A program made the position numbers and the translations under genes. From Poseidonibacter lekithochrous (GTDB taxonomy: Bacteria; Campylobacterota; Campylobacteria; Campylobacterales; Arcobacteraceae): a stretch of DNA of 64,000 bases. The notes below the pieces were generated by a model. The model was not told the origin of the DNA, made no database searches, and saw nothing but the letters and a program-made list of their open reading frames with translations. Shown piece by piece: positions 1 through 52,402 of the stretch. Numbering within the stretch: the stretch's first letter is position 1; every line of letters starts with the position of its first letter. The DNA lies in assembly GCF_018861145.1 (NCBI RefSeq), contig NZ_JAHKQT010000013.1, positions 1 to 64,000 on the forward strand, written 5' to 3'.

Positions 1-3000
1 TGTACCAACAGCAGTAAATGATAGTAAAACTGTTGAAGAGGGTAATACTTCTGGAATTAGTGGAAATGTTATTACAAATGATACAAAAGGAGCAGATGGT
101 GCTGCACTTAATGGCTTCACTTACAATAAAGAAGGTGGAGGAACAGAAACACTAATCTTTAGTGATGCTAATACAACATATACAAAAGATACACCAACAG
201 GAACATTAAAAGTTAACCAAGATGGTTCTTGGGAATTTACTCCAATATCTTCTGTTGATCATGATGATGATGAAACTCTAGGTAGTTTTAGTTATACACT
301 TATTGATGGTGATGGTGATATTTCAAATAGTGCTACAAATACTATAAGAGTAACAGATACAAATGCATCTGCTACAGGACCAGATAGTACACTTGATGAA
401 GATGACTTAACAGATGGAAGTAGTCCAACTCCCACTGATCTAATAGTTGAAAAAACTTTAGATATCACGAAAAGTCAAGATGATATAAGTGATATTAATT
501 TTGATGATGCAACGATAACAGGATTAGAAAATTTAAATTTAAAATCAAATGGTTTAGATATTTCTTATACTTTAAGTAACTTAAATCATACAATCACAGC
601 AAATAATGGCGAAAATAATATTTTTACTATCATACTTGGAAATACAGAAGATTCAACTGGTTTAACTCAAAAATACATATTTACTTTAATAGATACTATA
701 GATCATCCAAATGGAAGTGATGAGAATAATGTTAATTTACCATTTAGTTTTAATATTGCAGATATTGATTCAACAGTAGAAGGAACACCGTTTAATGTAA
801 CAATAATAGATGATGTGCCAACAGCAAATGATGAAATTGAATTAAGTGTTGTTGAAGGTAATATAGCACTAACTGTAATGAATAACCTTCTTGATAATGA
901 TGTAAAAGGTGCGGATAATTTATCAACAATTACAAGCTTTACTTATAAAAATGAGGGTGGTAATACTGTCTCAGGAATTTTTGGTTCTGCTATGGATACA
1001 CAATATGGTTCATTAACAGTAAATAGTGATGGTACATGGAGTTATACTTCAGATGCCACAGAAAATCATACTAATTCTGAAAGTTTAGCAGATAGTTTTA
1101 CATATTTGATTACTGATACTGATGGTGATACTTCAACAGCAACTCAGCTTATAAATGTAACTGATGGAGCAAATCCTACAATTGATAATTTAAATAATAC
1201 ACTTGTAAAAGTTTATGAAGGTGATGCAAAATCAACATTTAATGGAAGTGATGATTATAATGAATCAAATACGGATGCAAATAAATCAACAACTTTAACA
1301 CCTACTCATAAACTTGATTTTACAAAAGGTACAGATGATGCAGGGATTACATCTATTACTTGGGAAGGGATTACAGAGACTGTAACATCAACAGTTTCTG
1401 CAACTATAACAGATGATGATAAAGGAACACTTACTGTAAATTATGATGGAACATGGGAATATACACCACCTGCTACTTATATTCATGCTAATGGGGATGG
1501 TGTAAATAATTTTGAAACAACATTTAGTTATACAGTTACAGATACAGATACAGATGAAGTAACAACTGGAGCTCAAACTATTCAAGTAGATGATACTCTT
1601 GCTTCAATTACATCTACAACACCTTCAATATTAGATGAAGAAAATTTATCTACAGGTACAAATCCAAATACAAGTGAATTAACTAAATCTGGTGATATAA
1701 ATATTGATGTTAGTAACTTAAGTGGTGCTCATGATATTACTTTTGGAACGCAAAGTGATACTACTTTATTAAATACTGCGGTACCAGGTAGTACTTTATC
1801 TTCTTCAGGTGATGATATTTCATATGTAGTTTCTTCTGATGGATATACTTTAACAATGTATACAGGAATGGATAGTACACAAAATCATGTAATGGTTGTT
1901 ACAATAAATAACCCAACATCAGGGACACCAACATATACGGCAGTATTATCTGAAGCCTTTGACCATGAAACTTTACTTCTTGAAAATGGAAATTTAGAAT
2001 TTGATTTTAATATATTATTAACTGATGATGATAATGATGCAAATCCAAGTACTTTTAAAGTATCTATTATTGATGATACTCCATCTGATACACAAACTCT
2101 TACTGTAAATGAAGAGAGCGATACCGGAGTACATGATACGTCAACAACTATCAATACTAATGCAGATGCAACAGGAGGAGTAGGAGGAAATACAACAATA
2201 ACTACACAAGGAACGTATGGACATGCTGTTATAAATAGTGATGGTACTTTAACATATACACCAAGTTATGATGGCACTAACTCTATTGCTACAAACTATA
2301 GTGGGGAAGATACGGTTACTTATACAACTACTTTAGATGATGGTAGTACTAAATCTACAACTGTAACAGTTACTGTTAATCCAATTTCAGATGCTCCTGG
2401 TGTTACTGCTGATAATTCTATTGTATATACTCTTGAAGATACAGCTATTGCATTAGGTCTTAATGCACCGACTGTAACTGATGTAACAGATCAAAATAGC
2501 AGTGGAACAGCCGGAGATAATCCTGAGTTATTAGGTCTTATTACATTAAGTGGAATTCCTAGTGGTGTTGAACTTCAATATGGTTCATCTACATATACTT
2601 CAATAGGTAATGCGATTACAATTAAACTTAGTAATGGAAGTCATGTAAGTGATGTGAGTGGTGAAATATTAGAAATGACAATTGCTGAATTTGAAGCTCT
2701 AAAAGTTCTACCTATATCACAAGATGCAAATGACTTCACAGTAACTATGAGTGTTACAGAGTATGAAGTAGATGATAGTGGTGTCCAAATAACTGGAGTT
2801 GCAGGTGCTACGTCAACAACAACAGTTGATGTTGATGTCTTAGCTGTTACAGATCCAGTTGATATTAAGATAAATGGTTCTGATGTATCATATAAGGCTA
2901 CAGTAAATGAAGATAAAGCTTTAGATTTACAAGCTTTATTAAGTACAGAAGCATTTGCTGATTTAGATGGAAGTGAAAATAGAAGTATTGAAATAAGTGG

Positions 3001-6000
3001 TATTCCAAATGGTACAATGATAAATGGAACAACAATTACAGATGGTACGTATAGTATCCCATTAACTGGGTCTGCTAATGATACAATTCCTAGTTTATCA
3101 CTGACTCCACCACATAATTTTAGTGGTGATATTACAGGAATTACTATAAAACTTGTTGCACATGATACAGATACTGATAGTACACATGGGGATGGTACAA
3201 CAGGAACTACAACTACAAATGATGGAACAGTTGCTAATAGTATTATCTATGATACCTCTGATAGTGTAACTTTAAATATAACAGTTGAGCCAATAGCAGA
3301 TGATATTGCAGATATGAGTGCAAAAACTACAGATGAAGATACCGCAGCAACTTTCTTAAGTGATTTAGACTTAACAGATAAAGATACAGATGGAACTGAA
3401 AGCATTACAAAACTTGTAATTACTGGATTAGATGAAGGAAGTGTTATTGTTTACAATGAAGTTAGTACAACAATTGGAGTTGATGGAACTTTTACAATAG
3501 GTGATGGAACAAGTAATTTAGATATAACTACAATACAAGCCGCAACTATTCTTCCTCCTGCGCATAGTAGTAAAGATATGAGTATCACAGTAACTGCAAC
3601 AGTACAAGATGTAAATGATACTACTAGTACAATTGATTATTCAAAAACATTTGACCTTATTGTAAACCCAATCGCAGAAAGAACAGATAGTGATACAGCT
3701 GGAACAGTTGATAGTTGGGATATTATCACTCAAGGGAGTCATGAATATACAGCAAATGCAAGTGAAGATATATTCTTTGATTTAAATAATGCAGATAGCG
3801 GATTTGGTCTTTCTTTAACAAATGAAGATAGTGTCGAAACAACAACAGTATTATTTTCTCCAAAAGATGGAAGTGGTGCTGATTTAATTGGAACAACCTT
3901 TACATATGATGGAGGAACAACTGTATTTACATATAATGGTACAGCTATTGAAATTCCAAGTTCAGAACTTGCAAACTTACAAGTAAAAGCACCAGCAGAA
4001 TACAGTGGAAAACTAGTATTAACAACTGAAATTAAATCTATAGATTATGATGATGATAGTTCAGATCCTGAAGATGCAGATACTCAAACAAGTCCAGGAG
4101 ATACTTTAACTATTGTAGTTAATCCAGTAGCTGATGCTGTAACATTATCTATTAAACAATCATTTGGAAATGAAGATGCAGGAAGAGATGATGATGGAGT
4201 TTCTGGAATTGCTTTAAATATAGGTGTTTCTTCATCGGATAAAGATGGATCTGAAACTAATGCTTTAAAACTTAGTGATATTCCAGATGGAGCACAGATT
4301 TATTATGAGCGTGATTTAATTACAAAAGATAGCGCCAGTACTATACCAGGAATAACAGTAACTGATGATGTAGAAGGGAGTTGGACTCTTATAATTGATG
4401 AATATAATAATAATAATGATTTAAGATATGTACCAGAAGAACATTCAAATGAAAATATCGTATTAAATGTACAAGCAAAATCTACAGATTCTGTTAATGT
4501 AGATGGATCATTAATAACTGATACTTCAGCTTTTATTCCTACAGATGGTTTAGATATTCTAATAAAAGTTGAAGGTGTAGCAGATACACCAACTTATGCT
4601 ACACCTGTTTATGATAATAGTGTAGATGGTGTTCCCGATGATACATATAATGCTGTTGTAACAGAAGATACAAGTTCTATTTCTTTAAATACATTATTTC
4701 CAGAAGGTGAACCGAATTTTTCATCAGCTGACATATCAACAAATGGAGATATTTCAGAAACTCTTTTTGTAACGATTTCTGATTTACCAAGCGAATTTAC
4801 TATTACTGGAACAGATATTATTAAAATAGGTGATAATTGGGTGGTTGAAGCAAAAAACTTTGACAGTATTAAAGTTGCAGTTCCCAAAAATTATAGTGGA
4901 GAGATAAATCTTAATTTAAAACTTCAAACTATTGAAGATGATGGTGATAAGTTAGAAGATGTAGATCAGCCTGAAATTCCTTTAAAAATACTAGTTACTC
5001 CACACGCTGAAAGTACAGTAAATATCAGTGATTCACAAATTGAAGACTCAGGAGATAATGTACTTGACTTTAGTTTTAATCGAATAGATAGTGATGAAAA
5101 ACTTGAAAGTATTTGGATAAATACAGAAACAATTGATGCAGGTGTATCTCTTGTAACTACTCAAGGTACATTAGAAAAAACTTCAGAGGGAAGTCCTCAA
5201 TGGATAGAATTAGATGTAACAAATAATGAAGTAGAAACTGTTACAGCTAAACTTGATTCTTCATGGAATGACAAATCAGGGGAATATAACTTTGATATTA
5301 GATATAGTGTTTCTGATACTGTTGTAATAGATGGTGGTACAGCTTATACTGATCACCCAAGTGAGTATATTATGGAAACATATACAGTTACTGTAACTCC
5401 TGTTACAGATAATGCTGAATCATCTATTAGCACTATAAGCACTACAGATACAGATAAAGCAACAGTAAGTGGAAATGATACGGATGGATATACAGTTACT
5501 GCAGAAAAAACAGATGTAATAATAAAAGTACCATTTACTCTTGATTCAGTTTCTGATAAAGATGAAAGTGAACAAATTACCTCTATTACAATTTCAGGGG
5601 TTCCTGAAGGGGTTAGTGTGGTTAATGGAACTTATATGGGAGATATATTATCTAATACAGGAACTATTATTACTTCTGGTAAGTGGACTATTCCTGTTGC
5701 TGATGCTGATGCAATTCTTAATGCAGATGGTACATCAAATACAATTGAATTTGAAATTCATGGAGAAATAGTTAATTTCAATGATGAAACAACATTTGGA
5801 ACAATTTCTATTGATACAAAACATCAAGATTCTCCAGATACTGAACTCTCTAATACAGAGTTATTTACTTTAGAAATTACAGAGGATTTTGATGGAACTG
5901 CTGTAACAGAAGGGAATGAGACAGAAGATGAAAATAAAATTGAATTAATACCAAAAGAAAATGTACAACTTACAGAAGATACACCATTTAGTTTGAATAA

Positions 6001-8134
6001 TCTAGTAACAGCAACAGATATTGGAACACAAGGAGATGAAAGTAATTATGCTATTTTAGTTTCTAACTTACCAGATGGATATAATGTAGATGGAACAACA
6101 GAAACTAAAAATGTAGATGGAACTACTTATTATGTATTATATGGAAAAGGTGATGTAGATGATATAAATACATCACTTGCAAATATTACTGTAAATCCAA
6201 AAACAAATGAAAACACTTTAGATGTAGATAAAGTTGATTTGGATATTAAAGTAATAACATATACTAGTGAAACGAATCAAACTAGTTACACAGTAGATGG
6301 AACAGCTTTAGATGCTGAGATAGCACCTGTGAGTGATAAAACAAATATTGCTATATCTGGAAGTGATGTTGCAGAAAGCACAAATCCAAAAGCTCAAACA
6401 ATTACACTGGATTTAAGTAATAACGCAGATGGAACAAGAACAATTATAAAAGATGGAACAGTGTATGTTAAGTTTACAGAAGATTATACTGATACAAATA
6501 TTGAGATGGGTCTTATAACTTATAATGGTGTAAATATTAATACTTTGACTCCTGATGCTAACGGATATTATGCAATTACAGGCATTAATGATTTAGATAC
6601 TGATATATCATTTGAGTATACACCTCCTGCAAATTATTATGGAACATTAATGATAGACTCTAAAGTGACAACACAGGAAAATGTAAATGGTGCAACAGAT
6701 CAGAATGAAGACCCTTACTCAACGACTGAAATAGAATCAGTAGCAAGTAAAACTATAACTATCACTTCAGTAAATGATGGAATAACTCCATTTACACCAA
6801 CAATATCAGGTAATGAAGATGAAATTGCATTATTAAACTTTGGAGGAGGGGAATTAATTGACCCAACAGAGAAAATAATTGGTGCAAAACTAGAGGGTAT
6901 TCCTTTTGGCTATGAAGTCTCTTATGATGGTGAACCTGTAACTGGAACTATAATAGGTCAAGAAAATGGTGAATATATTTATGAATACAATTTTGATGTT
7001 TCATCAGTTGAAGAACTTCAAAAAATAGGAGTAAAAAAAATAGGAGTAGAAGACTTTAGTGGTGAAATCAGTGGAGTAACATTAAGTGTTACAAGTGGTG
7101 AACCTGGAAATGAAACTGCACAAGTTTCTGATTCTTTTAGTATTGTCTTTAATCCTATAGCAGATGCTATTAATATTAATGCAACAAAAACATTTGAAGA
7201 TGAATATGTATGGACAAATGTTAATTTAAATGCAAATGTTACAGATACGGATGGTAGTGAAACTTTTAATATTAGTTTTACTGCTGCTAATGGGGGAGAC
7301 TCATTAGATGATAGTATGTTATTTAAATATAAAGATGAAAGTAGTGATGCTAGTACAATAAGTTCAAGTTTCGATTCTGGAACGAAAACATGGACATTAA
7401 CTGGTATAGCATTTGATAAATTAAATGATATACAACTACTATATAAAGAATATAATGGCGATATTGATGTAATTGTTACTACTGTTGACAAATTAGGTTC
7501 TGTTACTGATGAACTGATTAATACATCTGATACATTTAATTTAAATTTAGCAACTTCTACAAATATTACTACAGGTGATGAAGATAATAAAATCACAACT
7601 TCAGATGCAGGTGTAACTGTAAATGCAGGAGGAGGAGCAAATAGTGTTACAGGTGGTACAGGCGATGATAATATTACTACAGGAGATGACGATGATATTA
7701 TTGATGCAGGATCTGGGGCTGATATTATTAACGCAGGAGCAGGAAATGATACTATAAAATATGATGGTCTTGATATAATTGATTCAGGAGTAGGAACTGA
7801 TACTTTGGCTTTTGATAGTGGATTAGATCTTGATTTTAGTACTTTAGGAAGTGATAATAGTAATAATATTATTAATAATATAGAAAAAATTGATTTATCA
7901 GAAAATGGAAATCATGCAATTACAGAATTAAGTTTACAAGATATTATTGATATGACTGATTCGAATAATATTTTACAAATATCAGGAGATTCTGGAGATA
8001 GTGTTAATTTAACAGATTCAGATAAAGCAGGTTGGACAGAATCAAGTCCAGGATCAGGAGAGTATACAAAAGATAGTAGTGGAACAACTGTTACATTAAA
8101 AATAGACACAGATATAACAACAAATATAATATAA
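1..8134 (+). CDS. Giant RTX/VCBS-type repeat adhesin, C-terminal part (LapA-like), open at left edge
   Basis: Reading frame 2 is open from base 2 to the stop at 8132-8134, so the gene starts left of the window; the GTG at 815 is internal. The visible ~2,710 residues are rich in Thr, Ser, Asp, Asn and Gly. They begin with VCBS-like modules (VPTA-NDE-type starts at 2 and 815), followed by ~130-150-residue beta modules that end in motifs such as NPISDAP (2377), VEPIADD, NPIAERT, NPVADAV and NPIADAI (~7150). Glycine-Asp RTX nonapeptides (GGTGDDNIT, GAGNDTIKY) at ~7620-7770 mark a calcium-binding type I secretion signal region. The downstream tolC, lapG/lapD-like, ABC and HlyD-type genes fit secretion and surface retention. 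The N-terminal retention module and any LapG cleavage site are outside the window. Confidence 0.9.
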   Translation, partial: VPTAVNDSKTVEEGNTSGISGNVITNDTKGADGAALNGFTYNKEGGGTETLIFSDANTTYTKDTPTGTLKVNQDGSWEFTPISSVDHDDDETLGSFSYTLIDGDGDISNSATNTIRVTDTNASATGPDSTLDEDDLTDGSSPTPTDLIVEKTLDITKSQDDISDINFDDATITGLENLNLKSNGLDISYTLSNLNHTITANNGENNIFTIILGNTEDSTGLTQKYIFTLIDTIDHPNGSDENNVNLPFSFNIADIDSTVEGTPFNVTIIDDVPTANDEIELSVVEGNIALTVMNNLLDNDVKGADNLSTITSFTYKNEGGNTVSGIFGSAMDTQYGSLTVNSDGTWSYTSDATENHTNSESLADSFTYLITDTDGDTSTATQLINVTDGANPTIDNLNNTLVKVYEGDAKSTFNGSDDYNESNTDANKSTTLTPTHKLDFTKGTDDAGITSITWEGITETVTSTVSATITDDDKGTLTVNYDGTWEYTPPATYIHANGDGVNNFETTFSYTVTDTDTDEVTTGAQTIQVDDTLASITSTTPSILDEENLSTGTNPNTSELTKSGDINIDVSNLSGAHDITFGTQSDTTLLNTAVPGSTLSSSGDDISYVVSSDGYTLTMYTGMDSTQNHVMVVTINNPTSGTPTYTAVLSEAFDHETLLLENGNLEFDFNILLTDDDNDANPSTFKVSIIDDTPSDTQTLTVNEESDTGVHDTSTTINTNADATGGVGGNTTITTQGTYGHAVINSDGTLTYTPSYDGTNSIATNYSGEDTVTYTTTLDDGSTKSTTVTVTVNPISDAPGVTADNSIVYTLEDTAIALGLNAPTVTDVTDQNSSGTAGDNPELLGLITLSGIPSGVELQYGSSTYTSIGNAITIKLSNGSHVSDVSGEILEMTIAEFEALKVLPISQDANDFTVTMSVTEYEVDDSGVQITGVAGATSTTTVDVDVLAVTDPVDIKINGSDVSYKATVNEDKALDLQALLSTEAFADLDGSENRSIEISGIPNGTMINGTTITDGTYSIPLTGSANDTIPSLSLTPPHNFSGDITGITIKLVAHDTDTDSTHGDGTTGTTTTNDGTVANSIIYDTSDSVTLNITVEPIADDIADMSAKTTDEDTAATFLSDLDLTDKDTDGTESITKLVITGLDEGSVIVYNEVSTTIGVDGTFTIGDGTSNLDITTIQAATILPPAHSSKDMSITVTATVQDVNDTTSTIDYSKTFDLIVNPIAERTDSDTAGTVDSWDIITQGSHEYTANASEDIFFDLNNADSGFGLSLTNEDSVETTTVLFSPKDGSGADLIGTTFTYDGGTTVFTYNGTAIEIPSSELANLQVKAPAEYSGKLVLTTEIKSIDYDDDSSDPEDADTQTSPGDTLTIVVNPVADAVTLSIKQSFGNEDAGRDDDGVSGIALNIGVSSSDKDGSETNALKLSDIPDGAQIYYERDLITKDSASTIPGITVTDDVEGSWTLIIDEYNNNNDLRYVPEEHSNENIVLNVQAKSTDSVNVDGSLITDTSAFIPTDGLDILIKVEGVADTPTYATPVYDNSVDGVPDDTYNAVVTEDTSSISLNTLFPEGEPNFSSADISTNGDISETLFVTISDLPSEFTITGTDIIKIGDNWVVEAKNFDSIKVAVPKNYSGEINLNLKLQTIEDDGDKLEDVDQPEIPLKILVTPHAESTVNISDSQIEDSGDNVLDFSFNRIDSDEKLESIWINTETIDAGVSLVTTQGTLEKTSEGSPQWIELDVTNNEVETVTAKLDSSWNDKSGEYNFDIRYSVSDTVVIDGGTAYTDHPSEYIMETYTVTVTPVTDNAESSISTISTTDTDKATVSGNDTDGYTVTAEKTDVIIKVPFTLDSVSDKDESEQITSITISGVPEGVSVVNGTYMGDILSNTGTIITSGKWTIPVADADAILNADGTSNTIEFEIHGEIVNFNDETTFGTISIDTKHQDSPDTELSNTELFTLEITEDFDGTAVTEGNETEDENKIELIPKENVQLTEDTPFSLNNLVTATDIGTQGDESNYAILVSNLPDGYNVDGTTETKNVDGTTYYVLYGKGDVDDINTSLANITVNPKTNENTLDVDKVDLDIKVITYTSETNQTSYTVDGTALDAEIAPVSDKTNIAISGSDVAESTNPKAQTITLDLSNNADGTRTIIKDGTVYVKFTEDYTDTNIEMGLITYNGVNINTLTPDANGYYAITGINDLDTDISFEYTPPANYYGTLMIDSKVTTQENVNGATDQNEDPYSTTEIESVASKTITITSVNDGITPFTPTISGNEDEIALLNFGGGELIDPTEKIIGAKLEGIPFGYEVSYDGEPVTGTIIGQENGEYIYEYNFDVSSVEELQKIGVKKIGVEDFSGEISGVTLSVTSGEPGNETAQVSDSFSIVFNPIADAININATKTFEDEYVWTNVNLNANVTDTDGSETFNISFTAANGGDSLDDSMLFKYKDESSDASTISSSFDSGTKTWTLTGIAFDKLNDIQLLYKEYNGDIDVIVTTVDKLGSVTDELINTSDTFNLNLATSTNITTGDEDNKITTSDAGVTVNAGGGANSVTGGTGDDNITTGDDDDIIDAGSGADIINAGAGNDTIKYDGLDIIDSGVGTDTLAFDSGLDLDFSTLGSDNSNNIINNIEKIDLSENGNHAITELSLQDIIDMTDSNNILQISGDSGDSVNLTDSDKAGWTESSPGSGEYTKDSSGTTVTLKIDTDITTNII
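7621..7770 (+). repeat. RTX calcium-binding nonapeptide repeats in the adhesin
   Basis: This stretch encodes consecutive Gly/Asp-rich nonapeptides (GGTGDDNIT, then GDDDDIIDA, GSGADIINA and GAGNDTIKY), the parallel beta-roll pattern of RTX proteins. They lie about 120 residues before the C-terminus, where type I secretion substrates carry their export signal. Confidence 0.85.
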
Positions 8135-8144
8135 GGAATATTAA

Positions 8145-8399
8145 ATGAGTTTAAGAAAACTATTAGTTTTAACAATATTATTAGGTGCAACACTTAGTTT
8201 AAATGCAGGAATGATTGCTTCAATTACAGGTCCAAATGTACTTAAAAGTGAATATGATAGTAAAAAAGAAAGAGGAATTATTATTGACCAAGATGTTGAT
8301 GGTGATGGAATAATTGATAGTAAAGATAATTGTTTAGAAACAAATCCTTGTAAAGGTGAAGGTTGTATTAAAGAAGAAGCAAAAGTAGTTCAAAAGTAA
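8145..8399 (+). CDS. Small secreted protein with a thrombospondin type 3-like calcium motif
   Basis: This is an 84-residue protein with a hydrophobic signal peptide (about residues 1-22, cleavage near NAG). An Asp-rich motif follows at residues ~48-65 (DVDGDGIIDSKDNC), typical of TSP3-type calcium loops, then more Cys residues (NPC, GEGC). The ATG follows an AAGGAATA ribosome site, and the gene starts 10 bases after the adhesin stop, so the two are probably cotranscribed. The Asp/Cys segment resembles the C-terminus of the next gene product (TolC-like). The function is unknown; a periplasmic or outer-membrane accessory role in adhesin handling is an inference. Confidence 0.75.
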   Translation: MSLRKLLVLTILLGATLSLNAGMIASITGPNVLKSEYDSKKERGIIIDQDVDGDGIIDSKDNCLETNPCKGEGCIKEEAKVVQK

Positions 8400-8559: not shown

Positions 8560-10464
8560 ATGAAAAAATATCATCTTTCATTGAAAATTTTGCTAAGTCT
8601 TGTATTTTTAAGTCAAATAGTAATGGCTGATAAATATAAAAAAGTTATTGTGGCAAGTTATACAAATGAATCAAAAGCACAATTAATGTACGATAAATTA
8701 CTTGGAAAAATTAACTCTAAAATAGAAGATAAAAAAGCTAAATATTCAATTAATGTTAATACAAGAAAAATTGGAAAATACTATATTATTGCAGTTGAAC
8801 CATTTGAAGATATTGAAAATGCAAAAGAAGTTTTAGAAGAATTAAAATCAGATTTCCCTACTGCATTTATAAGTAACTATTCAGATTCATTAGATAATAC
8901 TCAAACGTCTGTAATTAAAGATGAAACAAAAATAGTGGAAACAATTCCTACTTCTCCAGTAAAAAAAGCCCTTGTATCTAAAAAAGTAAAACCAATTCTT
9001 TTAAAAAGAAAATATACATTAGAAGATATGCTAAGAGAATTAATTTATACTGATCCGGAAATTCAAGAAAGATTATTTCAATATAATTCTGTAATGGAAG
9101 AAGTTAAAATTGCAGAAGCTGGTTATTATCCAACGATTGATTTATATGCTGAAACTGGAAAAAAAGAAACTGAAAAAGAAGGCAGTGCTAAAGATAAATA
9201 TGATGCTTCTGAAGTTACTTTAAGACTTGTTCAAAATTTATTTGATGGTTTTGGAACAGAAGCTGCTGTTAATAGAGATGAAGCAAGAGCAAAAGCTGCA
9301 TTTAATAAATATATAGAAGTTGCACAAGATAAAATGTATAGAGCTATTGAAGCATATCTTAAAGTAGTAAGATATAAAGAAGTATTAAAAATTGCAAAAG
9401 ATAATGTAAAAATACATGAAGAAACACTTTTAAAAATTCAGAATAGATATGACAAAGGATTTAGTACATTAAGTGAAGTTGAAAGAGTAAAGGGACGATT
9501 AGCTTTATCTAAATCAAACTATGTATCAGAAACAAATAATTTATTTGATGCAAAATTTAACTTTCATAAATCATTAGGACGAAATATTGATGAAAATCTT
9601 TTAGTAATGCCTACTTTTAATGGAACTTTACCTAAAACATTAGAACATGCAGGAGATGTAGCAATTCATAAAAATCCTTCTATTATGGTAGCAAACTATG
9701 ACATAAAAGCTACACAAGAAGCGCTACAGTATGCTGAAAAAAATGATTATCCAAGTTTAAATTTAGAAGTTGAGAGATCAAGATATAATAACTTAACAGG
9801 TTCTTCTGTTGGTAGAGAAGATGATTTAAGTGCAATGTTAGTTTTAAACTATAATTTATATAGTGGTGGAGCAGATAAAGCAAAAAAACAACAATATATT
9901 AGTTTATTAAATTATGAATATGCACATAAGAATAAGTTAAAAAGAGATGTTCTTGAAGCTTTAGGTCTATCTTGGAGTGCACATCAAATGATTTCAGAAC
10001 AATATAAATACCAAGTTCAATATAGAGATTTAACAGCAAAAACTAAAGCTGCTTATGATGAAGAATTTCAACTTGGAAGAAGAACTTTAATTGATTTACT
10101 AGATGTTCAAGATGAAGTTAATAATATTAAAATAAAAGTTATACATACTCAATATGATTTATTATTTGCAAAATATAGAATATTGGATGCAATGGGTGAA
10201 TTATATCAGTCGTTTGGACATAAATTTGAAGAAAAATATAAAAAAGATACAAATCTTGTTTATATGGATCAAGATCAGGATAATATTATAGATTGTGAAG
10301 ATCAATGTGATAATTCAGTATTACCTAATACGGTTAATATTTATGGATGTCAAGGAATTAATTGTGTTCAAGTAGAAGAAATTAAATTTGATACAGTAAT
10401 AAAAAATAATACAGAACAATTAGATACTACAGAGATTCAAAATTTATGGGGTGTTGAAAATTAA
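8560..10464 (+). CDS. TolC-family outer-membrane factor of the type I secretion system, with SPOR-like N-terminus
   Basis: This 634-residue protein has a signal peptide (1-23). Residues ~26-110 form an alpha/beta module resembling a SPOR (peptidoglycan-binding) domain. The outer-membrane efflux/TolC domain follows (~150-560; e.g. LRLVQNLFDGFGTE, and NYNLYSGGADKAK in the second half). The C-terminal extension carries an Asp-rich, Cys-containing TSP3-like segment (DQDQDNIIDCEDQCDNS) and a GCQGINC motif like that of the small protein at 8145. Ordinary TolC/LapE proteins are about 450-480 residues, so both ends are extra. It should form the outer-membrane channel with the ABC transporter at 13011 and the fusion protein at 15164. 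Confidence 0.9.
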   Translation: MKKYHLSLKILLSLVFLSQIVMADKYKKVIVASYTNESKAQLMYDKLLGKINSKIEDKKAKYSINVNTRKIGKYYIIAVEPFEDIENAKEVLEELKSDFPTAFISNYSDSLDNTQTSVIKDETKIVETIPTSPVKKALVSKKVKPILLKRKYTLEDMLRELIYTDPEIQERLFQYNSVMEEVKIAEAGYYPTIDLYAETGKKETEKEGSAKDKYDASEVTLRLVQNLFDGFGTEAAVNRDEARAKAAFNKYIEVAQDKMYRAIEAYLKVVRYKEVLKIAKDNVKIHEETLLKIQNRYDKGFSTLSEVERVKGRLALSKSNYVSETNNLFDAKFNFHKSLGRNIDENLLVMPTFNGTLPKTLEHAGDVAIHKNPSIMVANYDIKATQEALQYAEKNDYPSLNLEVERSRYNNLTGSSVGREDDLSAMLVLNYNLYSGGADKAKKQQYISLLNYEYAHKNKLKRDVLEALGLSWSAHQMISEQYKYQVQYRDLTAKTKAAYDEEFQLGRRTLIDLLDVQDEVNNIKIKVIHTQYDLLFAKYRILDAMGELYQSFGHKFEEKYKKDTNLVYMDQDQDNIIDCEDQCDNSVLPNTVNIYGCQGINCVQVEEIKFDTVIKNNTEQLDTTEIQNLWGVEN

Positions 10465-10474
10465 AAGAGTTTAA

Positions 10475-11098
10475 ATGAAAAAATACTTATTTTTTATCTT
10501 TTTATTTACAGCTCTTTCTTCAAAAGAGTTGTATACTAACAATTTATTAAAAAAAATAAATCTAAAATATGGTAAATATACTGAAAACAGATTTATTTTA
10601 TTAAAGAAAAAAATAAATAGTGTAAAAAATAAAAGTGATATAGAAAAAATAAATATGGTAAATAATTTTTTTAATAAAGTAAAATATGCATCTGATTCTA
10701 AAGTATGGAATAAAAAAGATTATTGGGCAACTCCTTACGAATTTTTAGCAAAAGACAAAGGTGATAGTGAAGATTTTGTTTTTGCTAAATATTTCACGTT
10801 AGTAAACGATTTAAATATTAGTAGTAATAAACTATCATTTACATATGTAAAATCAAAGAAGAAGAAAGTTTCATATATGGTTTTAACATATTATAAAACA
10901 AAAAAATCCATACCAATTATTTTAGATGCTATAAATTACAAAGCCTTACCTGCATCGAAAAGACAAGATATTATTCCTATTTATAGTTTTAGTGCAAAAA
11001 GTGCAGGATTAGATAAAAAAAGTAATAGTAAATTTAAAGCTTCCCAGAGTTTAAAATTTAGAAGACTTTTACAGAATATTAGAGAGGAAAAAATATGA
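10475..11098 (+). CDS. LapG-like transglutaminase-fold protein lacking catalytic Cys and His (probable pseudo-protease)
   Basis: This 207-residue protein has a signal peptide (about 1-16) and the bacterial transglutaminase-like cysteine peptidase (LapG) layout. Active LapG proteins carry a GDCEDY-type motif, a His before MVL, and an Asp in an LDN motif. Here the first reads GDSEDF (Ser98, codon AGT at 10766-10768). The His position reads Tyr134 in SYMVLTYY (TAT at 10874-10876), and only Asp151 (LDA) remains. The SKRQDIIPIYSF segment is preserved. In Lap systems LapG trims the adhesin from the surface under LapD control; this copy is predicted unable to cut. It overlaps the LapD-like gene by 4 bases (ATGA), so the pair is translationally coupled. 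Confidence 0.85.
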   Translation: MKKYLFFIFLFTALSSKELYTNNLLKKINLKYGKYTENRFILLKKKINSVKNKSDIEKINMVNNFFNKVKYASDSKVWNKKDYWATPYEFLAKDKGDSEDFVFAKYFTLVNDLNISSNKLSFTYVKSKKKKVSYMVLTYYKTKKSIPIILDAINYKALPASKRQDIIPIYSFSAKSAGLDKKSNSKFKASQSLKFRRLLQNIREEKI

Positions 11099-13011
11099 GT
11101 TTATTTAAACAATTAACTATCTTAATTACTATATTTTTAGTATTTATGCTTACAATTTTACTCTGGTTTATACTAAGTTATAATAAAGATTTAATAGAAA
11201 ACCAGTTGAATTCTAATGCAAAAAATAGTGCTTCATTTTTAGGATTATCTATTAGTAAAGCTGTAGACTTTGAAGATACAGCTACTATGGAAGGTATGCT
11301 AAGAGCGACAGTTGATAATGGGTTTTATGAATATATATCTATTATTGATACTGATGATAATATAAAACTTAAACTTTCTAGTCCTAGAGAAATTGAAAAA
11401 GCACCTACATGGTTTTCTAGTATATTTCAAATTAATGCTCCTGCTGCTACGGCTAATATTATGAAAGGCTGGCTAAATGCAGGGACAATAGAAGTTAAAA
11501 TACATAGAGGTTATGCAAATAACCAAATGTGGAATACTTTTAAATCTATTTCAAATATATTCTTAGTTTCAACACTTATCTTGCTTGTATTATTTTACTT
11601 TTTTATAGATAGATTATTAAAACCTTTAAAAAGATTAAGTATTCAAGCAAAAGCAATTGACAATAATGAATTTATTATAGAAAAATCTTTGCCTAATACA
11701 ATAGAATTTAAAAATGTTGTACAAGCAATGAATAAAACAATATCAAAAATGGAAATGATATTTAATAAAGAAGTGGAAACATTAAATAAATACAATAATG
11801 TATTGTATAAAGATGAGGATACTAATTTAAGAAATAAGAATTATTTAATATTAAAATTAAACTCTTATTTAAAAAATTCTCATGGACTATTAACTTTTAT
11901 TGAAATAAAAGATGAACTTTCATTTAAGAAAAAAGTGGGTTTCAAGAATTATTTTGCTTTAAAAACTTTTATTATTGATGAAATCAGGAACAATTTTTCT
12001 TATAATAGAGATATAGTGTTTTCTGTCTTAACTGATGGTAGTTTTGCAGTACTTTTACCTCATACCTTATATGAAGATGTTAATAAAAAATGGAAAGATA
12101 TATATTCAAATATAGAAAATTATATAGAAGCCTCAAAGTTAAATGAGTTGTTTGATGTAAAAATTGCCTTTGGTATTTCAAATTATGTTCAAAATACTGA
12201 ATTAAAAGATATTTTAATTAAAACTGATCAATCTTTAACTGCTGCTATGCAGAATAAAACTTTAAAAATTAACTATTTAGAAAAACCTGTTAAGTTTAGA
12301 AAACAAGAATGGATTGAACTTTTACAATGGGCATTCGAGAATAATGGTTTGATTTTTAATACACAAGACGTTTTAGATATCTCATCTAGCAAAATATTTA
12401 TGAAAGAATATTATACTAGATTAAAAGATAAATCAGGAACAGTATATTTCCCAGGTGATTTTTTATCTATTGTTCATTCAATGGATTGGATGATCCAATT
12501 AGAGAAACAAATTATTGGAAAAATATTTAAAGAGAAAGAAGAAAGTAAAGAAAAAAATAAAGCTGTTATAAATTTAACATCTGATTTTATTTCAAACAAA
12601 ACAAGTGTTAATTGGTTAATAAATGAATTAAAAATTAAGTTTTCTAATTCGAGTACGACTTTTTATTTTGAATGTCCAAATGCTGATATTATAGAATATT
12701 TAAAAGAGTATAAATATTTCACAAAAGAGATATCTAAAACTAATCATAAGTTTGCAATTGAAAGTTTTAATTTTGATAATGATAATTTAGATTATTTAAA
12801 AACTCTTAAGCCAGAGTATTTAAAAATTTCTAAATCATATTTAGTAGATAAAAATAGTATCACGGATGGTATTTTATTAAATATTACTTCTACTATTGGT
12901 GCTTATCTTATTGTTAAGCATGTAGAAACTAAAGAAGAGTTTGAATTTTTAAGAAATATTGGAATTAAATATTTACAAGGTAGATATATTGATCAGTTAG
13001 AGGTTCTTTAA
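11095..13011 (+). CDS. LapD-like inner-membrane c-di-GMP receptor with degenerate GGDEF and EAL domains
   Basis: This 638-residue protein has TM helices at ~7-28 and ~152-171 flanking a periplasmic LapD_MoxY_N-type domain. That domain carries a GWLNAGTIEV segment (Trp126), like the LapD loop that binds LapG. HAMP (~172-225), GGDEF (~240-390) and EAL (~400-638) domains follow. The GGDEF signature is replaced by DGSF (residues 314-317), and the EAL motif is EYYTR, so neither synthesis nor hydrolysis of c-di-GMP is expected. The EAL domain ends in the usual VETKEEFEFL and YLQGRYI segments. The known role of the family is inside-out signalling of c-di-GMP to LapG. Here the partner looks catalytically dead. 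Confidence 0.88.
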   Translation: MSLFKQLTILITIFLVFMLTILLWFILSYNKDLIENQLNSNAKNSASFLGLSISKAVDFEDTATMEGMLRATVDNGFYEYISIIDTDDNIKLKLSSPREIEKAPTWFSSIFQINAPAATANIMKGWLNAGTIEVKIHRGYANNQMWNTFKSISNIFLVSTLILLVLFYFFIDRLLKPLKRLSIQAKAIDNNEFIIEKSLPNTIEFKNVVQAMNKTISKMEMIFNKEVETLNKYNNVLYKDEDTNLRNKNYLILKLNSYLKNSHGLLTFIEIKDELSFKKKVGFKNYFALKTFIIDEIRNNFSYNRDIVFSVLTDGSFAVLLPHTLYEDVNKKWKDIYSNIENYIEASKLNELFDVKIAFGISNYVQNTELKDILIKTDQSLTAAMQNKTLKINYLEKPVKFRKQEWIELLQWAFENNGLIFNTQDVLDISSSKIFMKEYYTRLKDKSGTVYFPGDFLSIVHSMDWMIQLEKQIIGKIFKEKEESKEKNKAVINLTSDFISNKTSVNWLINELKIKFSNSSTTFYFECPNADIIEYLKEYKYFTKEISKTNHKFAIESFNFDNDNLDYLKTLKPEYLKISKSYLVDKNSITDGILLNITSTIGAYLIVKHVETKEEFEFLRNIGIKYLQGRYIDQLEVL

Positions 13012-15164
13012 TGTTTAAAAATCTTGAGCATAAAAAACTATCTTTATCCTTATTTGATAATTTAATTTATTTTCTAAAATATTATCATAAATCAATAAGT
13101 GCAAATACCCTTATTGAAGGATTTCCATTAAAAGCAGAACAACAAATTCCTGATATGTTAAGTGTATACAATGGTAAGCCTCTTTTTATTTCGCTTGCAA
13201 GAAAAGCTGGATTTAAATCTAAATATATAAAAAAAGAATTCAAAAATATTTCAGCATTAGTTTTACCTGCAATTATTATTTTAAAAGATAGTACTTCTTG
13301 TATTTTAGAAAAAATTGATAAAGAAAAACAAACTGCAGTTATTCATATTAATGAATTTGCAGAAGTTAAAGAAGAAATCTCTTTATCTAAATTAAAAGAT
13401 TTATATTCAGGAGAAATGTTTTTATTAAAAAAAGATCATTTTGAAAGTGAAGTAAAACCGTCATTATTAGATAAAAATGATAGCCATTGGTTTTGGGGTA
13501 CAATTAAAAAGAATTTTTCAATATATAAAGATGTAATAATAGCATCAATTCTAATCAATATTTTTGTACTTACAACTCCATTTTTTGTAATGAATGTATA
13601 TGATAGAGTTGTTCCAAACTTTGCATTAGAGACTTTATGGGCTATGGCTATAGGTATCTGTGTTATATATGTATTTGATTTAGTCACAAAGTTCATAAGA
13701 GCTTATTACATAGATATTAGTTCTAAAAAAGTTGATATTATAGTATCTTCAAAATTGTTTGATAAAATACTAAACATTAAATTAGAACATAAACCTAAGT
13801 CAATTGGATCTTTTGCGAATAATATTAAAGATTTTGAACTTATAAAAAACTTTTTTTCAAGTTCGACAATGGCTGTATTAGTTGACTTACCATTTTCTAT
13901 TTTATTTTTAGTTGCAGTTTTTTATATATCAGGTTCAATCGTAATTGTTCCTATGATTTTTATTGCACTGATTTTAATTTATTCTTTACTTATTCGAAAT
14001 CCTTTGCATAAAAGTATAGAAGCTTCAAATGAAGCAGTATCTTATAAAAATGGTATTTTAATTGAAAGTTTAAGTGGACTTGAAACAATCAAAAGCTTAG
14101 GTGCTTCGGGGCATCTTAGATGGAAATGGGAAGAGAGTACTGCTGATATTTCAACAAAGTCATTATTTACAAAAATGATAACTACTTCAATTACAAATGT
14201 AAATGCTTTTTTTGTACAACTTACAACTATTTTTATAGTAATCTATGGTGTTTATGCAATTTCTGAAAACGAATTAACATTGGGTGGTTTAATAGCAGCT
14301 GTAATTTTAGGTTCAAGAGCTATTGGACCTATGGGTCAGTTTGCTTCACTTATTAGTAATTATGAACAAGCTAAAACTTCATACAATATGTTAGATAATA
14401 TTATGAATCTTCCTGAAGAGAGATCTAAAAATAAAGCAGCAATTCATAAAGAGTATATTTCAGGTTCTTTTGAATTTAAAGATGTTTCATTTTTTTATAA
14501 TGAAAATAAGAAAGTTCTAGATTCTTTAAACTTCACTGTTAAACATGGAGAAAAAATAGGAATTGTAGGAAAAATAGGCTCAGGAAAATCTACAATTATG
14601 AAACTATTAATGAAGCTTTATGATGCAAATGAAGGTGAAATAATAGTTGATGGTATTGAAATAAAGCAGATAGAACCATCAGATGTTAGGAAAAATATAG
14701 CTTATGTATCGCAAGATACTTTACTATTTAATGGAACACTAAAAGAAAATATTTTGTATAAATATCCTTATGAAAGTGATGAAACACTAATCAATGCTAC
14801 AAAAACTGCACAATTATTAGATTTTGTAAATGCTCATCCTGAAGGTTTTGATTTACGTGTGGGTGAGAGAGGAGATACTCTATCTGGTGGACAGAAAAAG
14901 GCTATATCTTTAGCTAGAGCATTAGTTGGTAATTATTCTACTTTATTATTAGATGAACCAACTGATAGTATGGATATCTCAACTGAGAAGAATTTAATTA
15001 ATGCTTTAAAAAATGAGATTAAAGATAAAACAGTGATTTTAACTACACATAAAAGTTCAATGCTAGAGTTAGTTGATAGATTAATTGTTGTAGATAATGG
15101 AAAAATAGTTTTAGATGGCGAAAAATCTTATGTATTAAATGCATTATCAAATAAGGTTAAATAA
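13011..15164 (+). CDS. Type I secretion ABC transporter, permease-ATPase (LapB/HlyB-like)
   Basis: This 717-residue fusion has an N-terminal C39-peptidase-like domain (~15-135) without the catalytic Cys (a CLD, as in HlyB/LapB). Six predicted TM helices (~160-430) and an ATPase domain (~475-715) follow. Walker A is GKIGSGKST at ~520, the signature LSGGQ is at ~624, and Walker B is LLLDEPTDSMD. It should power export of the giant adhesin through the TolC-like channel. Its ATG overlaps the preceding stop by one base (TAATG), and it overlaps the following HlyD-type gene the same way. Both overlaps indicate one operon. Confidence 0.93.
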   Translation: MFKNLEHKKLSLSLFDNLIYFLKYYHKSISANTLIEGFPLKAEQQIPDMLSVYNGKPLFISLARKAGFKSKYIKKEFKNISALVLPAIIILKDSTSCILEKIDKEKQTAVIHINEFAEVKEEISLSKLKDLYSGEMFLLKKDHFESEVKPSLLDKNDSHWFWGTIKKNFSIYKDVIIASILINIFVLTTPFFVMNVYDRVVPNFALETLWAMAIGICVIYVFDLVTKFIRAYYIDISSKKVDIIVSSKLFDKILNIKLEHKPKSIGSFANNIKDFELIKNFFSSSTMAVLVDLPFSILFLVAVFYISGSIVIVPMIFIALILIYSLLIRNPLHKSIEASNEAVSYKNGILIESLSGLETIKSLGASGHLRWKWEESTADISTKSLFTKMITTSITNVNAFFVQLTTIFIVIYGVYAISENELTLGGLIAAVILGSRAIGPMGQFASLISNYEQAKTSYNMLDNIMNLPEERSKNKAAIHKEYISGSFEFKDVSFFYNENKKVLDSLNFTVKHGEKIGIVGKIGSGKSTIMKLLMKLYDANEGEIIVDGIEIKQIEPSDVRKNIAYVSQDTLLFNGTLKENILYKYPYESDETLINATKTAQLLDFVNAHPEGFDLRVGERGDTLSGGQKKAISLARALVGNYSTLLLDEPTDSMDISTEKNLINALKNEIKDKTVILTTHKSSMLELVDRLIVVDNGKIVLDGEKSYVLNALSNKVK

Positions 15165-16474
15165 TGAAAGATCAAGAAAAAACAAATGACTATGAATATA
15201 TAAATTCTGTATCACAAGCATTAGTTGAAAAAGTACCAAGTAGTACTAAAGTTCTTTTATACTTAATCTTTTTATTACTAATATGTTTTTTTATTTGGGC
15301 ATATTTTGCAAATATTGATCAATTAGTTAGAGGAGAGAGTAAAGTTATTCCTTATGGTCAGAATCAAATTGTTCAAAATTATGAAGGTGGTATTATCACT
15401 AAGATTTTAGTTGAAGAGGGTGATTTAGTTAATAAAGGTGATATTTTATTACAACTTAAAAATAAACAGTCCTCTTCAACTTATGAAAAAAATATACTTG
15501 AAATTGATGTATTAAAAGCACAGAAAAATAGATTATATGCAGAAGCAAATGATGAGGATTTTATATTTGATGAGAAAAATGATATTTATCAAAAAGAGTT
15601 TGATTTGTATGAAAGTGATATTTCTCAACTTGATTCAAAACTTAGAATTTTAAAGGATCAAATTTCACAAAAAGAAAAAGAAAGAAATGAAATAAGATCC
15701 AGAATAAAACATTTAGATCAAAATTTTAAACTTATTAGACAAGAACAAAAAGTTATGGATCCCTTAGTAAAAAGAGGAATTGTTTCTAAGGTTGAATATT
15801 TAAAACTATTAAGAGAAGCTAATTCAATAAAAGATGAATTAGAATCTTCGAAATTATCATTAAAAAGAGTACTTTCCTCTGTAGATGAAGCAAAAAATAG
15901 ATTTAAAGAGGCAAAAAGTGAGTTTAAAAATAATGCACACAAAGAATATAATGAAATTATAGGAAAAATTAATCAGTTCTCAAAACAAAACCAAGGTTTA
16001 GCGGATCAAGTTGATAGAACATCAGTAGTTTCTCCTGTTACAGGCTATATAAAAAAAATGCATATAAATACAATAGGTGGAAGTGTTCAACCGGGAATGG
16101 ATTTAATAGAAATTGTTCCTAAAAATAAAAAGCTTTTAATTGAAGCAAAAATTAAACCTGAAGATATTGCTTTTTTACATAATGAACAAAATGTTACATT
16201 AAAATTTACTGCTTATGATTTTACAATTTATGGATCATTAGATGGAACAATAGAAAAAATATCTCCTGATTCAACAACAGACCAAGAAAACAATACATAT
16301 TATTTAGTATATATACGAGCTAATAAAGATTATTTAGGTACTGATGCAAAACCTTTAATGATTATGCCTGGAATGAGAGGAAGTGCTGATATTTTAACAG
16401 GTAAGAAGACAGTTCTAACTTATCTTTTAAAACCAGTTATAAAAACAAAACAATATGCATTTACAGAGAATTAA
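15164..16474 (+). CDS. Type I secretion membrane fusion protein (HlyD/LapC family)
   Basis: This 436-residue protein has a short cytoplasmic N-terminus, one TM helix (~27-47) and a biotinyl-lipoyl-like hairpin start (NYEGGIITKILVEEGD at ~72-87). A long coiled coil (~100-270) follows, then beta-barrel segments with the family motif VVSPVTGYIKK and a C-terminal MPGMRGSADILTGKKTVL-type ending. It bridges the inner-membrane ABC transporter and the TolC-like channel. It overlaps the ABC gene by one base. HlyD, LapC and PrsE all share this architecture; the context favours the LapC role. Confidence 0.92.
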   Translation: MKDQEKTNDYEYINSVSQALVEKVPSSTKVLLYLIFLLLICFFIWAYFANIDQLVRGESKVIPYGQNQIVQNYEGGIITKILVEEGDLVNKGDILLQLKNKQSSSTYEKNILEIDVLKAQKNRLYAEANDEDFIFDEKNDIYQKEFDLYESDISQLDSKLRILKDQISQKEKERNEIRSRIKHLDQNFKLIRQEQKVMDPLVKRGIVSKVEYLKLLREANSIKDELESSKLSLKRVLSSVDEAKNRFKEAKSEFKNNAHKEYNEIIGKINQFSKQNQGLADQVDRTSVVSPVTGYIKKMHINTIGGSVQPGMDLIEIVPKNKKLLIEAKIKPEDIAFLHNEQNVTLKFTAYDFTIYGSLDGTIEKISPDSTTDQENNTYYLVYIRANKDYLGTDAKPLMIMPGMRGSADILTGKKTVLTYLLKPVIKTKQYAFTEN

Positions 16475-16475
16475 A

Positions 16476-17075
16476 ATGAGAATAGTTTTCGTTTCCCCAA
16501 ATAGACTATTGCATGATCAATGGAATAAAGCAATTGAAAATAATACGAAAATTTCAAATATTTATTTTGAAAAAGAGATAGAAAACTTCAATTTTTTAGA
16601 AGAGGATATTATTCTTTTTGATTATGACAATTTAAATGAGTTTTTGTCTTTTGCTTTAAAAGGAAGAGTTTTATGCTTAAGTTCGAAATTAGATAATATC
16701 AATGGTTTTAAACTTTTAAAACAGGGAGTAAAAGGTTATGGTAATAACTATATGACACCTATGAATTTAAAAGAAGCAATTAAAGTTATCAAAAGTGACA
16801 AAGTTTGGGTAAATCCGGATTTAATGAAGTTTATTATTGAAAATTCAACTTTGTCAAAATTAGTGAAATATGATGATAAAATTGATGGTTTAAGTCAAAG
16901 AGAATTAGATGTTTCAAAGTTTGTTTCAAAAGGATTTACAAATAAAGAAATAGCTCAAGAGCTTGATATTACAGAGAGAACTATAAAGGCTCATATATCA
17001 ACTATATTCCAAAAGTTACAAATAAAAGATAGAGTAACTTTAGGAATTATGATGAAAGAGTATTTAAACTCTTAA
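16476..17075 (+). CDS. LuxR/FixJ-type DNA-binding regulator with a receiver-like N-terminus
   Basis: This 199-residue protein starts at the ATG just after the HlyD-type stop, with AGAG upstream. A longer open frame from 16455 would overlap the HlyD-type gene and has no ribosome site. The N-terminal ~120 residues look like a divergent receiver domain; Asp in the ILFDYDN segment is a possible phosphoacceptor, but the acidic pocket is not clear. The C-terminal ~60 residues are a LuxR-type helix-turn-helix (LSQRELDV, TNKEIAQELDITERTIKAH). It resembles CsgD/VpsT-like regulators of surface structures in layout. As the last gene of the adhesin operon it may control that operon (inference). No histidine kinase is nearby. 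Confidence 0.82.
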   Translation: MRIVFVSPNRLLHDQWNKAIENNTKISNIYFEKEIENFNFLEEDIILFDYDNLNEFLSFALKGRVLCLSSKLDNINGFKLLKQGVKGYGNNYMTPMNLKEAIKVIKSDKVWVNPDLMKFIIENSTLSKLVKYDDKIDGLSQRELDVSKFVSKGFTNKEIAQELDITERTIKAHISTIFQKLQIKDRVTLGIMMKEYLNS

Positions 17076-27252: not shown

Positions 27253-30057
27253 TTACGCTTTATAAATTTTAACTGCACATTTTTTAAAGTCAGTTTGGAA
27301 CGATTGTGGACAAGTATAATCAGCACATACTTTGTTGATAAATACTTTTTCATCAAACCATGGTACAAATACTAAACCTTTTGAAGGTCTATTTCTTCCT
27401 CTTGTTTCAACTCTTGCTTTAACTTTTCCACGTCTTGATTCAACCCATGCTAAAGCACCTTGTTTAACACCATATTTCTTAGCATCTTCAGGATGCATAT
27501 AACATAAGGCTTCAGGAACTGCTCTATAAAGTTCAGGAACTCTCATCGTCATAGTACCTGAGTGCCAGTGTTCTAAAACTCTACCTGTACTTAACCATAC
27601 TGGGTATCTTTCATCTGGCATTTCAGGTGCATCCATATAAGGACGAGCAAAAATCTTAGCTTTGTTTTTTAAAGATTTTTTATTTTTATCTGTAATACCT
27701 TTTAAATCACCTTGAGCTAATGCTTTAGCAAGTGTTCCATAGAATGCAAAATCTGTTCCAGGTTTTCCATATTTTTTAGCATATGGATCGTATTTAGTAT
27801 TAAATCTCCATTGAGTTTCTTTACCATCAACAACTGGCCATTTAAGTCCTCTTACTTTGTGATAAGTATCGAAGTCAGCTAAATCATGTGCATGTCCTCT
27901 TCCGAATTCTGCATACTCTTCAAATAAGTATTTTTGAATAAAGAATCCATATCCTTTAAATACTTTTCCATCAGAACCAATAATATTTCTTGAATCACCA
28001 ATTGCATCAGTATTGTCATATCCAGCTTGAATTGGATCTTCTAAATCAATTTTGTAAGATTTAGCTTTTTTATTTGCGAATAAGATTTCATACATAGTTG
28101 TATTTTCATCGTATCCCATTTTTTTAGCTTCAGCTGTAACGTCTGCTAATTTTTTACCGTTTCTTAGAGTTGATGCACCCCATAAATCTTTAACCGTAAA
28201 TCTTTTTGAAAGTTCAACCCATTGCCATGTATCAGACATTGCATCACCTACTGGCAATACTTGTTGTCTCCAATGTTGAGTTCTTCTTTCTGCATTTCCA
28301 TAAGCTCCCCATTTTTCATAAATCATTGCAGATGGTAGGATAAGGTCAGAAACTTTTGCTGAAATACCAGGGTATCCATCAGAAGTTACAATAAAGTTAT
28401 CCATTTCTCTTGCTGCTTTAATCCAGTGAGATGCTGATGCAGTATCTTGGTAAGGATTACATACATTTACCCATGCAAATTTAATAACACCATCTTCAAT
28501 ATCTCTATGGATTTTCATGATGTGTTGATTTCCAATAGGATTTAGTGTTCCATTTGGAATTTTCCATGCATTTTCAGTAATTTTTCTATGCTTAGGATTT
28601 GCTACCATCATATCAGCTGGTAATCTATGACAGAATGTTCCAACTTCTCTTGCAGTTCCACAAGCAGATGGTTGACCTGTTAATGAGAATGCACCAGAAC
28701 CTGGTTTAGCTTGTTTATTCAATAAGAAGTGAACATTGTATGCTAATGTATTAACCCAAGTTCCTCTTGTATGTTGGTTCATACCCATAGTCCAGAAAGA
28801 TACTACTTTTCTATTTTTTTCAATATATAAACTTGCCATTTCTTTGATTTTTTTCATAAAATCAGCATCTGATTCATCAGGATTACCTTTTGAAACTTGA
28901 GTTGTATATTCAGCTGTATATGGCTCTAAGAATTTTTTATACTCTTCAAATGAAATTTCCCAGTGTTTTAAACCAGAATTTTTATTAACCATTACATCAC
29001 CTTCTTTATAACCATAAGGTGCAAGTGCAGGGGCTTCATCTTTAGAAACTACTTTTTTCATTTCTTTTGAAATTGTTTCCATTTCAAGATCAGTATATTT
29101 ACCATCTTTAATTGATTTTTCATCAGATCTTCTCATTCCATAACCCATATTAACAGGTGATGCTGCGAATACGATATGTTCTTTAACAAAATCCCAATCA
29201 ATTGATTCTGGATGATTATAAACAATTTCTCTAGCAATATAATTCCATAATGCTAAATCTGAATTAGGTTTGAAAATAATTTCAGTATCAGCTATATCAG
29301 AAGTTCTATGTCTATATGTAGAAAGGTTGATAATTTTTACATTTTTAGGATCTGATAATTTTCTATCAGTAACTCTTGACCATAAAATAGGATGCATTTC
29401 TGCCATGTTAGAACCCCAAGTTACGATAGTATCAGTTAATTCGATATCATCATAACATCCAGATGGTTCATCAATTCCAAAAGTTTGGTAGAAACCAACA
29501 ACTGCAGATGCCATACAGTGTCTAGCATTTGGATCAAAAGCATTTGATCTGAATCCACCTTTCATCATTTTCTGAGCAGCGTATCCTTCCATAACAGTAT
29601 ATTGTCCTGATGCAAATACACCAACACCTTCTGGACCTGAATGCTTAAGTGCTTTTTTGATATTTAATTCCATCTCATCAAAAGCTCTTTCCCAAGAAAC
29701 AGGTGCGAAGTTACCTTTTTTATCAAAGTTACCTTTTGAATCTACTCTTAATAATGGTTGCTTTAATCTATCAGCTCCATACATAATTTTAGCATTAAAA
29801 TAACCCTTAATACAGTTAAGACCTCTATTTACAGGGGCTGCAGGATCACCTTTTACGGCAACAATTTTACCAGCTTTTGTAGCAAGCATAATTCCACATC
29901 CAGTTCCACAGAAACGACAAGCTGCCTTATCCCATCTCCATCCACCTTCTGCTGCATTTGCTTTTGCAGCTAATTCTGCTGGTACAGTCATACCAACTGC
30001 TGCTGCTGCTGATGCTGCTGCTGAGCTTTTTAGAAAATCTCTTCTTGATAGCGACAT
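27253..30057 (-). CDS. napA: NapA, periplasmic nitrate reductase catalytic subunit
   Basis: This 934-residue protein contains Mo-bis-MGD and a [4Fe-4S] cluster and reduces nitrate to nitrite in the periplasm. It has a Tat signal (SRRDFLK, residues 4-10), cluster ligands Cys47, Cys50, Cys54 and Cys82, and the Mo-ligand Cys181 in ARHCMAS. The start is the ATG at 30057 behind AAAGGAG; a TTG 18 bases upstream is also in frame but lies before the ribosome site. It is the first gene of napAGHBFLD. A TTGAT-N4-GTCAA activator site is centred at -41.5 from the predicted transcription start. Confidence 0.97.
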
Positions 30058-30094
30058 ATTTTCTCCTTTAATCAAGTTAATGTTTTACCTTGAA

Positions 30095-52341: not shown

Positions 52342-52402
52342 AACTTCTCCCTTTTTAATTATTAAACATAATTTTGAGGGGAACACGACTTCCCCTTATT
52401 TC

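Follow-up and report, generated by a model that had tools for sequence, protein, structure and literature searches.

The window, the whole stretch of 64,000 nucleotides of Poseidonibacter lekithochrous that was analysed here, begins within a Lap-type operon. Its order is giant adhesin, OmpA-like remnant, TolC-type channel with a SPOR domain, LapG-like protein, LapD-like receptor, ABC exporter, membrane fusion protein, and LuxR-type regulator (Table 1). The order TolC-LapG-LapD-LapB-LapC-LuxR is common to five species, namely the window genome (G000), G004, G002, G084, and tcs-49/G456, and the LuxR-type regulator was found at the equivalent location in the latter four. The ortholog of the truncated OmpA-like gene codes for 222 aa with an OmpA domain in G004 and G002 and is of equal length in G084, and tcs-49 carries the OmpA domain as a fusion with TolC. 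The TolC protein ends in an Asp- and Cys-rich tail (MDQDQDNIIDCEDQCDN) reminiscent of a thrombospondin type 3 repeat and without a Pfam match. Further along the window lie ordinary respiratory genes, coding for a Tat-exported molybdopterin oxidoreductase (27253-30075), a protein with cytochrome c and cytochrome d1 domains (50623-52386), and a COX1-family protein (52572-53993).

Table 1. Genes and residues of the Lap-type operon in the window.
Feature	Position	Strand	Remarks
Giant adhesin, C-terminal part	2..8134	+	Frame open from base 2; N-terminus beyond the contig edge
Truncated OmpA-like gene, 81 aa, OmpA domain missing	8145..8390	+	Orthologs of 222 aa have the domain
TolC-type outer membrane channel with N-terminal SPOR domain	8560..10464	+	PF02321, PF05036, TIGR01844
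LapG-like pseudoprotease	10475..11098	+	207 aa, signal peptide; PF06035, fold match, residue composition
Ser98 codon AGT	10766..10768	+	On the catalytic Cys position (alignment with 4u65/4fgo)
Tyr134 codon TAT	10874..10876	+	On the catalytic His position (alignment with 4u65/4fgo)
Asp151 codon GAT, third triad residue, kept	10925..10927	+	Alignment with 4u65/4fgo
ATGA, overlap of LapG-like stop and LapD-like start	11095..11098	+	
LapD-like receptor: LapD_MoxY_N periplasmic domain, degenerate GGDEF, EAL	11095..13011	+	PF16448, PF00563
Type I secretion ABC exporter (LapB/LssB type)	13011..15164	+	TIGR03375, 838 bits
HlyD-type membrane fusion protein (LapC)	15164..16474	+	TIGR01843, 383 bits
LuxR-type regulator, operon end	16455..17075	+	PF00196

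The LapG-like open reading frame is intact and codes for an exported protein that matches Pfam PF06035 (Peptidase_C93/BTLCP) with 36.8 bits, against a cut-off of 27, and the LapG equivalog model NF045674 with 149 bits, which is under the cut-off of 320. The AF2 model of the protein (pLDDT 85) had P. fluorescens LapG as its best fold match (4u65_E; Z 23.9, rmsd 1.9 A, 174 residues aligned), followed by 4fgq, 4fgo, and 4fgp with Z of 20.7-21.0, after which the first unrelated entry scored Z 10. Using the LapG structures of L. pneumophila (4fgo) and P. fluorescens (4u65) as references, we confirmed what the initial annotation had read from the letters: Ser98 stands in place of the catalytic Cys and Tyr134 in place of the catalytic His, Asp151 aligns with the catalytic Asp of the solved LapGs, and the frame is intact and translationally coupled to the LapD-like gene through the ATGA overlap. 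The protein contains neither Cys nor His in all of its 207 aa, and neither was found in the mature proteins of all five species that carry the Ser/Tyr pair; the only Cys of the G084 protein sits within its signal peptide. Two ways in which that reading might have failed were rejected. A substitute Cys-His pair elsewhere in the protein is excluded by the composition of the mature protein, and an assembly or sequencing error by identical residues in four other species, three of which have single-contig genomes. By descent and fold it is a member of the LapG/Peptidase C93 family, but with the defining Cys-His-Asp triad removed by C98S and H134Y it should not be classed among the active LapG proteases. 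The prediction that the loss of its catalytic residues leaves it unable to act as a cysteine protease is well supported.

Cys and His were invariant in the 42 active LapGs that we compared, and Ser was present in all five Ser/Tyr proteins, which form a single clade (support 100/99). Identity to the window protein is 90% for G004, 83% for G002, 80% for G084, which belongs to a different genus, and about 51-54% for tcs-49/G456, which belongs to a different family of the same order. The Ser/Tyr form is rare: about 130 genes in 89 Arcobacteraceae genomes matched the Cys-form motif, and the genes seen in those genomes with Ser at the Cys site were the four Ser/Tyr ones named here. Among the 397 genomes of the class that were sampled, to which G002 did not belong, four contained the non-Cys motif. 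When 84,980 genomes were scanned for a pattern in which the codon at the Cys site had to have A, C, or G as its first base, a handful of further LapG-like proteins lacking the Cys emerged. Their carriers include the Campylobacterales genome Dive100, two Gammaproteobacteria, one Betaproteobacterium, and Castellaniella, among others. The His is still present in several of these proteins, most of which come from single metagenome-assembled genomes. In scattered lineages, the catalytic Cys of LapG-family proteins is replaced by Ser, Ala, Gly, or Thr (L088, L091, L092, L096, L102, L107, and L109). The Cys may therefore have been lost more than once in the LapG family, and the Ser/Tyr clade is the only one of these forms shown to be stable.

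A search for a second LapG, which the initial annotation had proposed, revealed three additional LapG-family genes in the window genome, all with intact C-H-D: one on contig C15 in its own Lap operon, one on C1 adjoining a LapD, and one alone on C23. The arrangement of the active C15-type and G092 systems differs from that of the Ser/Tyr operon. Four of the five Ser/Tyr species have two or three active LapGs, and in tcs-49/G456, which is 99% complete, the Ser/Tyr protein is the sole LapG-family member.

The LapG-like gene is under strong purifying selection. Among the four closer orthologs dN/dS was 0.07-0.15, close to the value for LapC, the membrane fusion protein, and below that for TolC. 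The distant ortholog pairs have dS near or above 1, and the most reliable pair is the window genome with G004, which gave dN/dS of 0.07-0.08 at dS of 0.6-0.7. Of 39 columns that are near-invariant in the 42 active LapGs, 31 were unchanged across all five Ser/Tyr proteins. The changes fixed in all five were C98S, Y101F, I103F, H134Y, and W195F; Y101F and I103F neighbour Ser98 on the nucleophile helix, and W195F lies in the C-terminal helix. The putative calcium-site residues Asp74, Asp97, and Glu99, near the nucleophile, were kept in 5/5, as were Ile169/Tyr170, the positions of LapD crosslinks.

The LapD-like receptor matches PF16448 with 107.8 bits and retains the Trp of the GW loop, the LapG anchor, with KGWLNAG aligned to DGWMQAG of CdgS9. 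Each of the ten LapDs compared has this Trp. The Q of GWxQ was kept neither in the pseudoprotease-linked LapDs nor in the aligned LapDs of active systems. In the alignment with P. fluorescens LapD, the EAL domain of the operon LapD retains the corresponding Arg, Asn, Lys, Glu, and Gln-Gly. The EAL Arg and Asn kept by the pseudoprotease-linked LapDs are lost in the LapDs of two active systems, C15 of the window genome (L065) and G092 (L062), and the putative c-di-GMP site thus seems better preserved in the operon with the dead protease than in those active systems.

The N-terminus of the adhesin lies outside the window, and the state of its cut motif was therefore invisible to the initial annotation. 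Contig C26 of this genome carries a 466-aa fragment with a retention module that matches the N-terminal end of the complete orthologs; it is likely to be the missing start of the window adhesin, the join being drawn from ortholog similarity. The operon adhesins scored weakly against NF033682 (21-24 bits, cut-off 50) and at 194-207 bits against the family-specific profile A1, which was built with these very sequences. The Ser/Tyr operons thus have an adhesin with an N-terminal retention module together with type I exporter genes. LapG cleaves downstream of the retention module, inside [T/A/P]AAG (PMC13090378). The position in Arcobacteraceae mostly reads ETAEG, ETTEG, or ETAAG; a strict TAAG rule was rejected because most active Arcobacteraceae systems have ETAEG or ETTEG, and a broader class was used. 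A motif of this class was present in 26 of the 26 Arcobacteraceae retention-module adhesins surveyed outside the Ser/Tyr operon, roughly a dozen of which have an active LapG gene nearby, although this count is less independent than it appears as the class was defined after inspection of the data, with TSEG added last. Shuffled N-termini contained the motif in about 1 of 26. In the adhesins of the five Ser/Tyr operons, with the N-terminus for the window genome taken from contig C26, the motif was found in none (0/5). An element around R-N-G/A-D/E downstream of the cut position is still recognisable in these adhesins.

A second adhesin of G002, encoded elsewhere in its genome, retains AAAG, and the motif loss is therefore confined to the adhesin of the operon itself. 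Since the five species form one clade, the joint loss of the cutter and the cut site counts as one evolutionary event. The pairing of lost catalytic residues with a lost cut motif is well supported as an association in the compared sequences, and is not proof of cause. A retention-module search of the other genomes with a non-Cys LapG found no adhesin tied to the altered gene. TEAG, present in the adhesin next to a Ser-bearing LapG in G093, was considered as a further motif loss and dropped, since L178, from a genome with a Cys-type LapG, has a similar AEAG. In G004, active LapGs lie at C1:743056 and C1:2504479; despite these two, a profile search of that genome found no retention-module adhesin besides the one of the pseudoprotease operon.

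We consider it somewhat better than an even chance that this operon is a natural Lap branch, in which c-di-GMP would control a giant adhesin without proteolysis, the LapG-like protein would serve as a dedicated export or retention partner, and the cut site would have disappeared from the adhesin within this lineage. The LapG-like protein would bind the periplasmic retention module of its own adhesin as well as the LapD-like receptor. Binding would be gated by c-di-GMP through LapD and would aid export of the adhesin, or hold it uncut in the TolC-type channel, and release would then take a route other than LapG cleavage. The idea that the protein is a pseudo-protease that binds without cutting, already raised in the initial annotation, is supported by the conserved clade, the loss of both residues, the purifying selection, and the retention of the putative calcium-ligand and LapD-contact residues. 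Permanent retention of the adhesin, also raised there, is plausible, and more so given an operon adhesin without the cut motif. Sequence comparison gives good support to the inactivity and to the paired losses; the positive function is our inference.

The closest precedent is an engineered one. In Shewanella, BpfG C116S kept adhesin binding in a two-hybrid assay and lost release; the adhesin was held more firmly at the membrane and biofilm increased (PMC4523816). Export of BpfA requires BpfG (PMC4523816; PMC11455927). By analogy, the LapG-like protein is most likely, in our judgement with a modest balance of probability in favour, a natural version of BpfG C116S, that is, a partner controlled by c-di-GMP and LapD that would support adhesin export or retention without cleavage. 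The two share the Cys-to-Ser change at the nucleophile, and the BpfG operon of S. oneidensis likewise encodes an OmpA-like protein (PMC4523816); in contrast to the engineered mutant, the change here is natural and fixed, the His is lost too, and the adhesin has lost its cut motif. A route for binding without cutting is offered by the diverged Lap-like DvhG/DvhD/DvhA system of Desulfovibrio vulgaris, for which docking of retention modules onto the protease is supported, although DvhG is an active protease and its receptor is of the HD-GYP type rather than the LapD-type EAL found here (PMC13090378). Several points count against an export or retention partner. Loss of LapG in P. fluorescens instead raises biofilm (noted in PMC4523816), BpfG C116S was studied mainly by overexpression (PMC4523816), and the export role, carried over here by analogy, comes from a single Shewanella study. 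In addition, the adhesin may have an uncharacterised cut site that is used by the active paralogs present in four of the five species.

The presence of those active paralogs, together with the kept LapD-contact residues, could also fit a decoy or shield, in which the inactive protein titrates LapD and so frees the active LapGs, or covers the adhesin against them. A decoy for another LapG, as the initial annotation had suggested, does not hold as a general account, because tcs-49/G456 has no other LapG-family protein, and a shield should be needless for an operon adhesin that already lacks the cut motif; we regard this explanation as unlikely. The protein might instead be a receptor subunit only, a stable periplasmic partner of LapD that adjusts c-di-GMP signalling and has given up contact with the adhesin. 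The kept Trp anchor of LapD, the kept LapG residues facing it, and the translational coupling of the two genes agree with this, as does the published model in which LapG binding itself feeds input into LapD (PMC5231407). However, conservation extends across the whole core, including the substrate side, and gene and adhesin share one operon in 5/5 species, and we regard a role confined to the receptor as likewise unlikely.

Two further explanations concern the fate of the catalytic site itself. Ser98 lies at the start of the nucleophile helix, Asp151 is kept, and Ser and Tyr are both fixed in five species, as might be expected if the protein had kept an enzymatic role, either with Ser98 as the nucleophile or through an activity different from Cys-His proteolysis. 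We consider this very improbable because the protein lacks any His, and the substrate motif is gone. Moreover, a Cys-to-Ser change inactivates cleavage by BpfG (PMC4523816), and in HvyA of Caulobacter crescentus, a BTLCP relative that requires its triad and controls capsule but no adhesin, the same two substitutions are non-functional, C192S being dead and H226Y having been recovered in a screen for non-functional HvyA (PMC4241560). The least probable reading is a vestige, in which cutting was lost and the gene is drifting to loss. Such an outcome would be consistent with the disappearance of the catalytic residues and the cut site and with the truncated OmpA-like gene nearby in the window genome, but the low dN/dS, a frame that is intact in five species of two families, and the near-invariant positions kept in all of them speak against it. 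We therefore favour a non-cutting export or retention partner.

Lap systems are the textbook case of biofilm release through regulated adhesin cutting. The operon described here resembles the LapG systems of P. fluorescens and L. pneumophila in fold (Z 20.7-23.9), in the calcium-ligand and LapD-contact residues, in its LapD partner, and in its type I secretion operon, and differs from them in that Ser and Tyr replace Cys and His and the operon adhesin lacks a [T/A/P]AAG-type site. An incomplete literature search found no paper on a LapG pseudoprotease, an Arcobacter LapG, or a non-cleavable LapG adhesin. In at least five species, the Lap switch for biofilm release appears to have been reorganised so that it operates without cutting. 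That the blade and the cut site were dropped, with the receptor and the body of the protease remaining under strong selection, indicates that LapG proteins can take on a second, non-cutting job. An engineered mutant had already prompted the proposal of such a role for BpfG of Shewanella; in the Ser/Tyr clade the role appears to have been isolated by evolution, which offers a natural system in which it can be tested.
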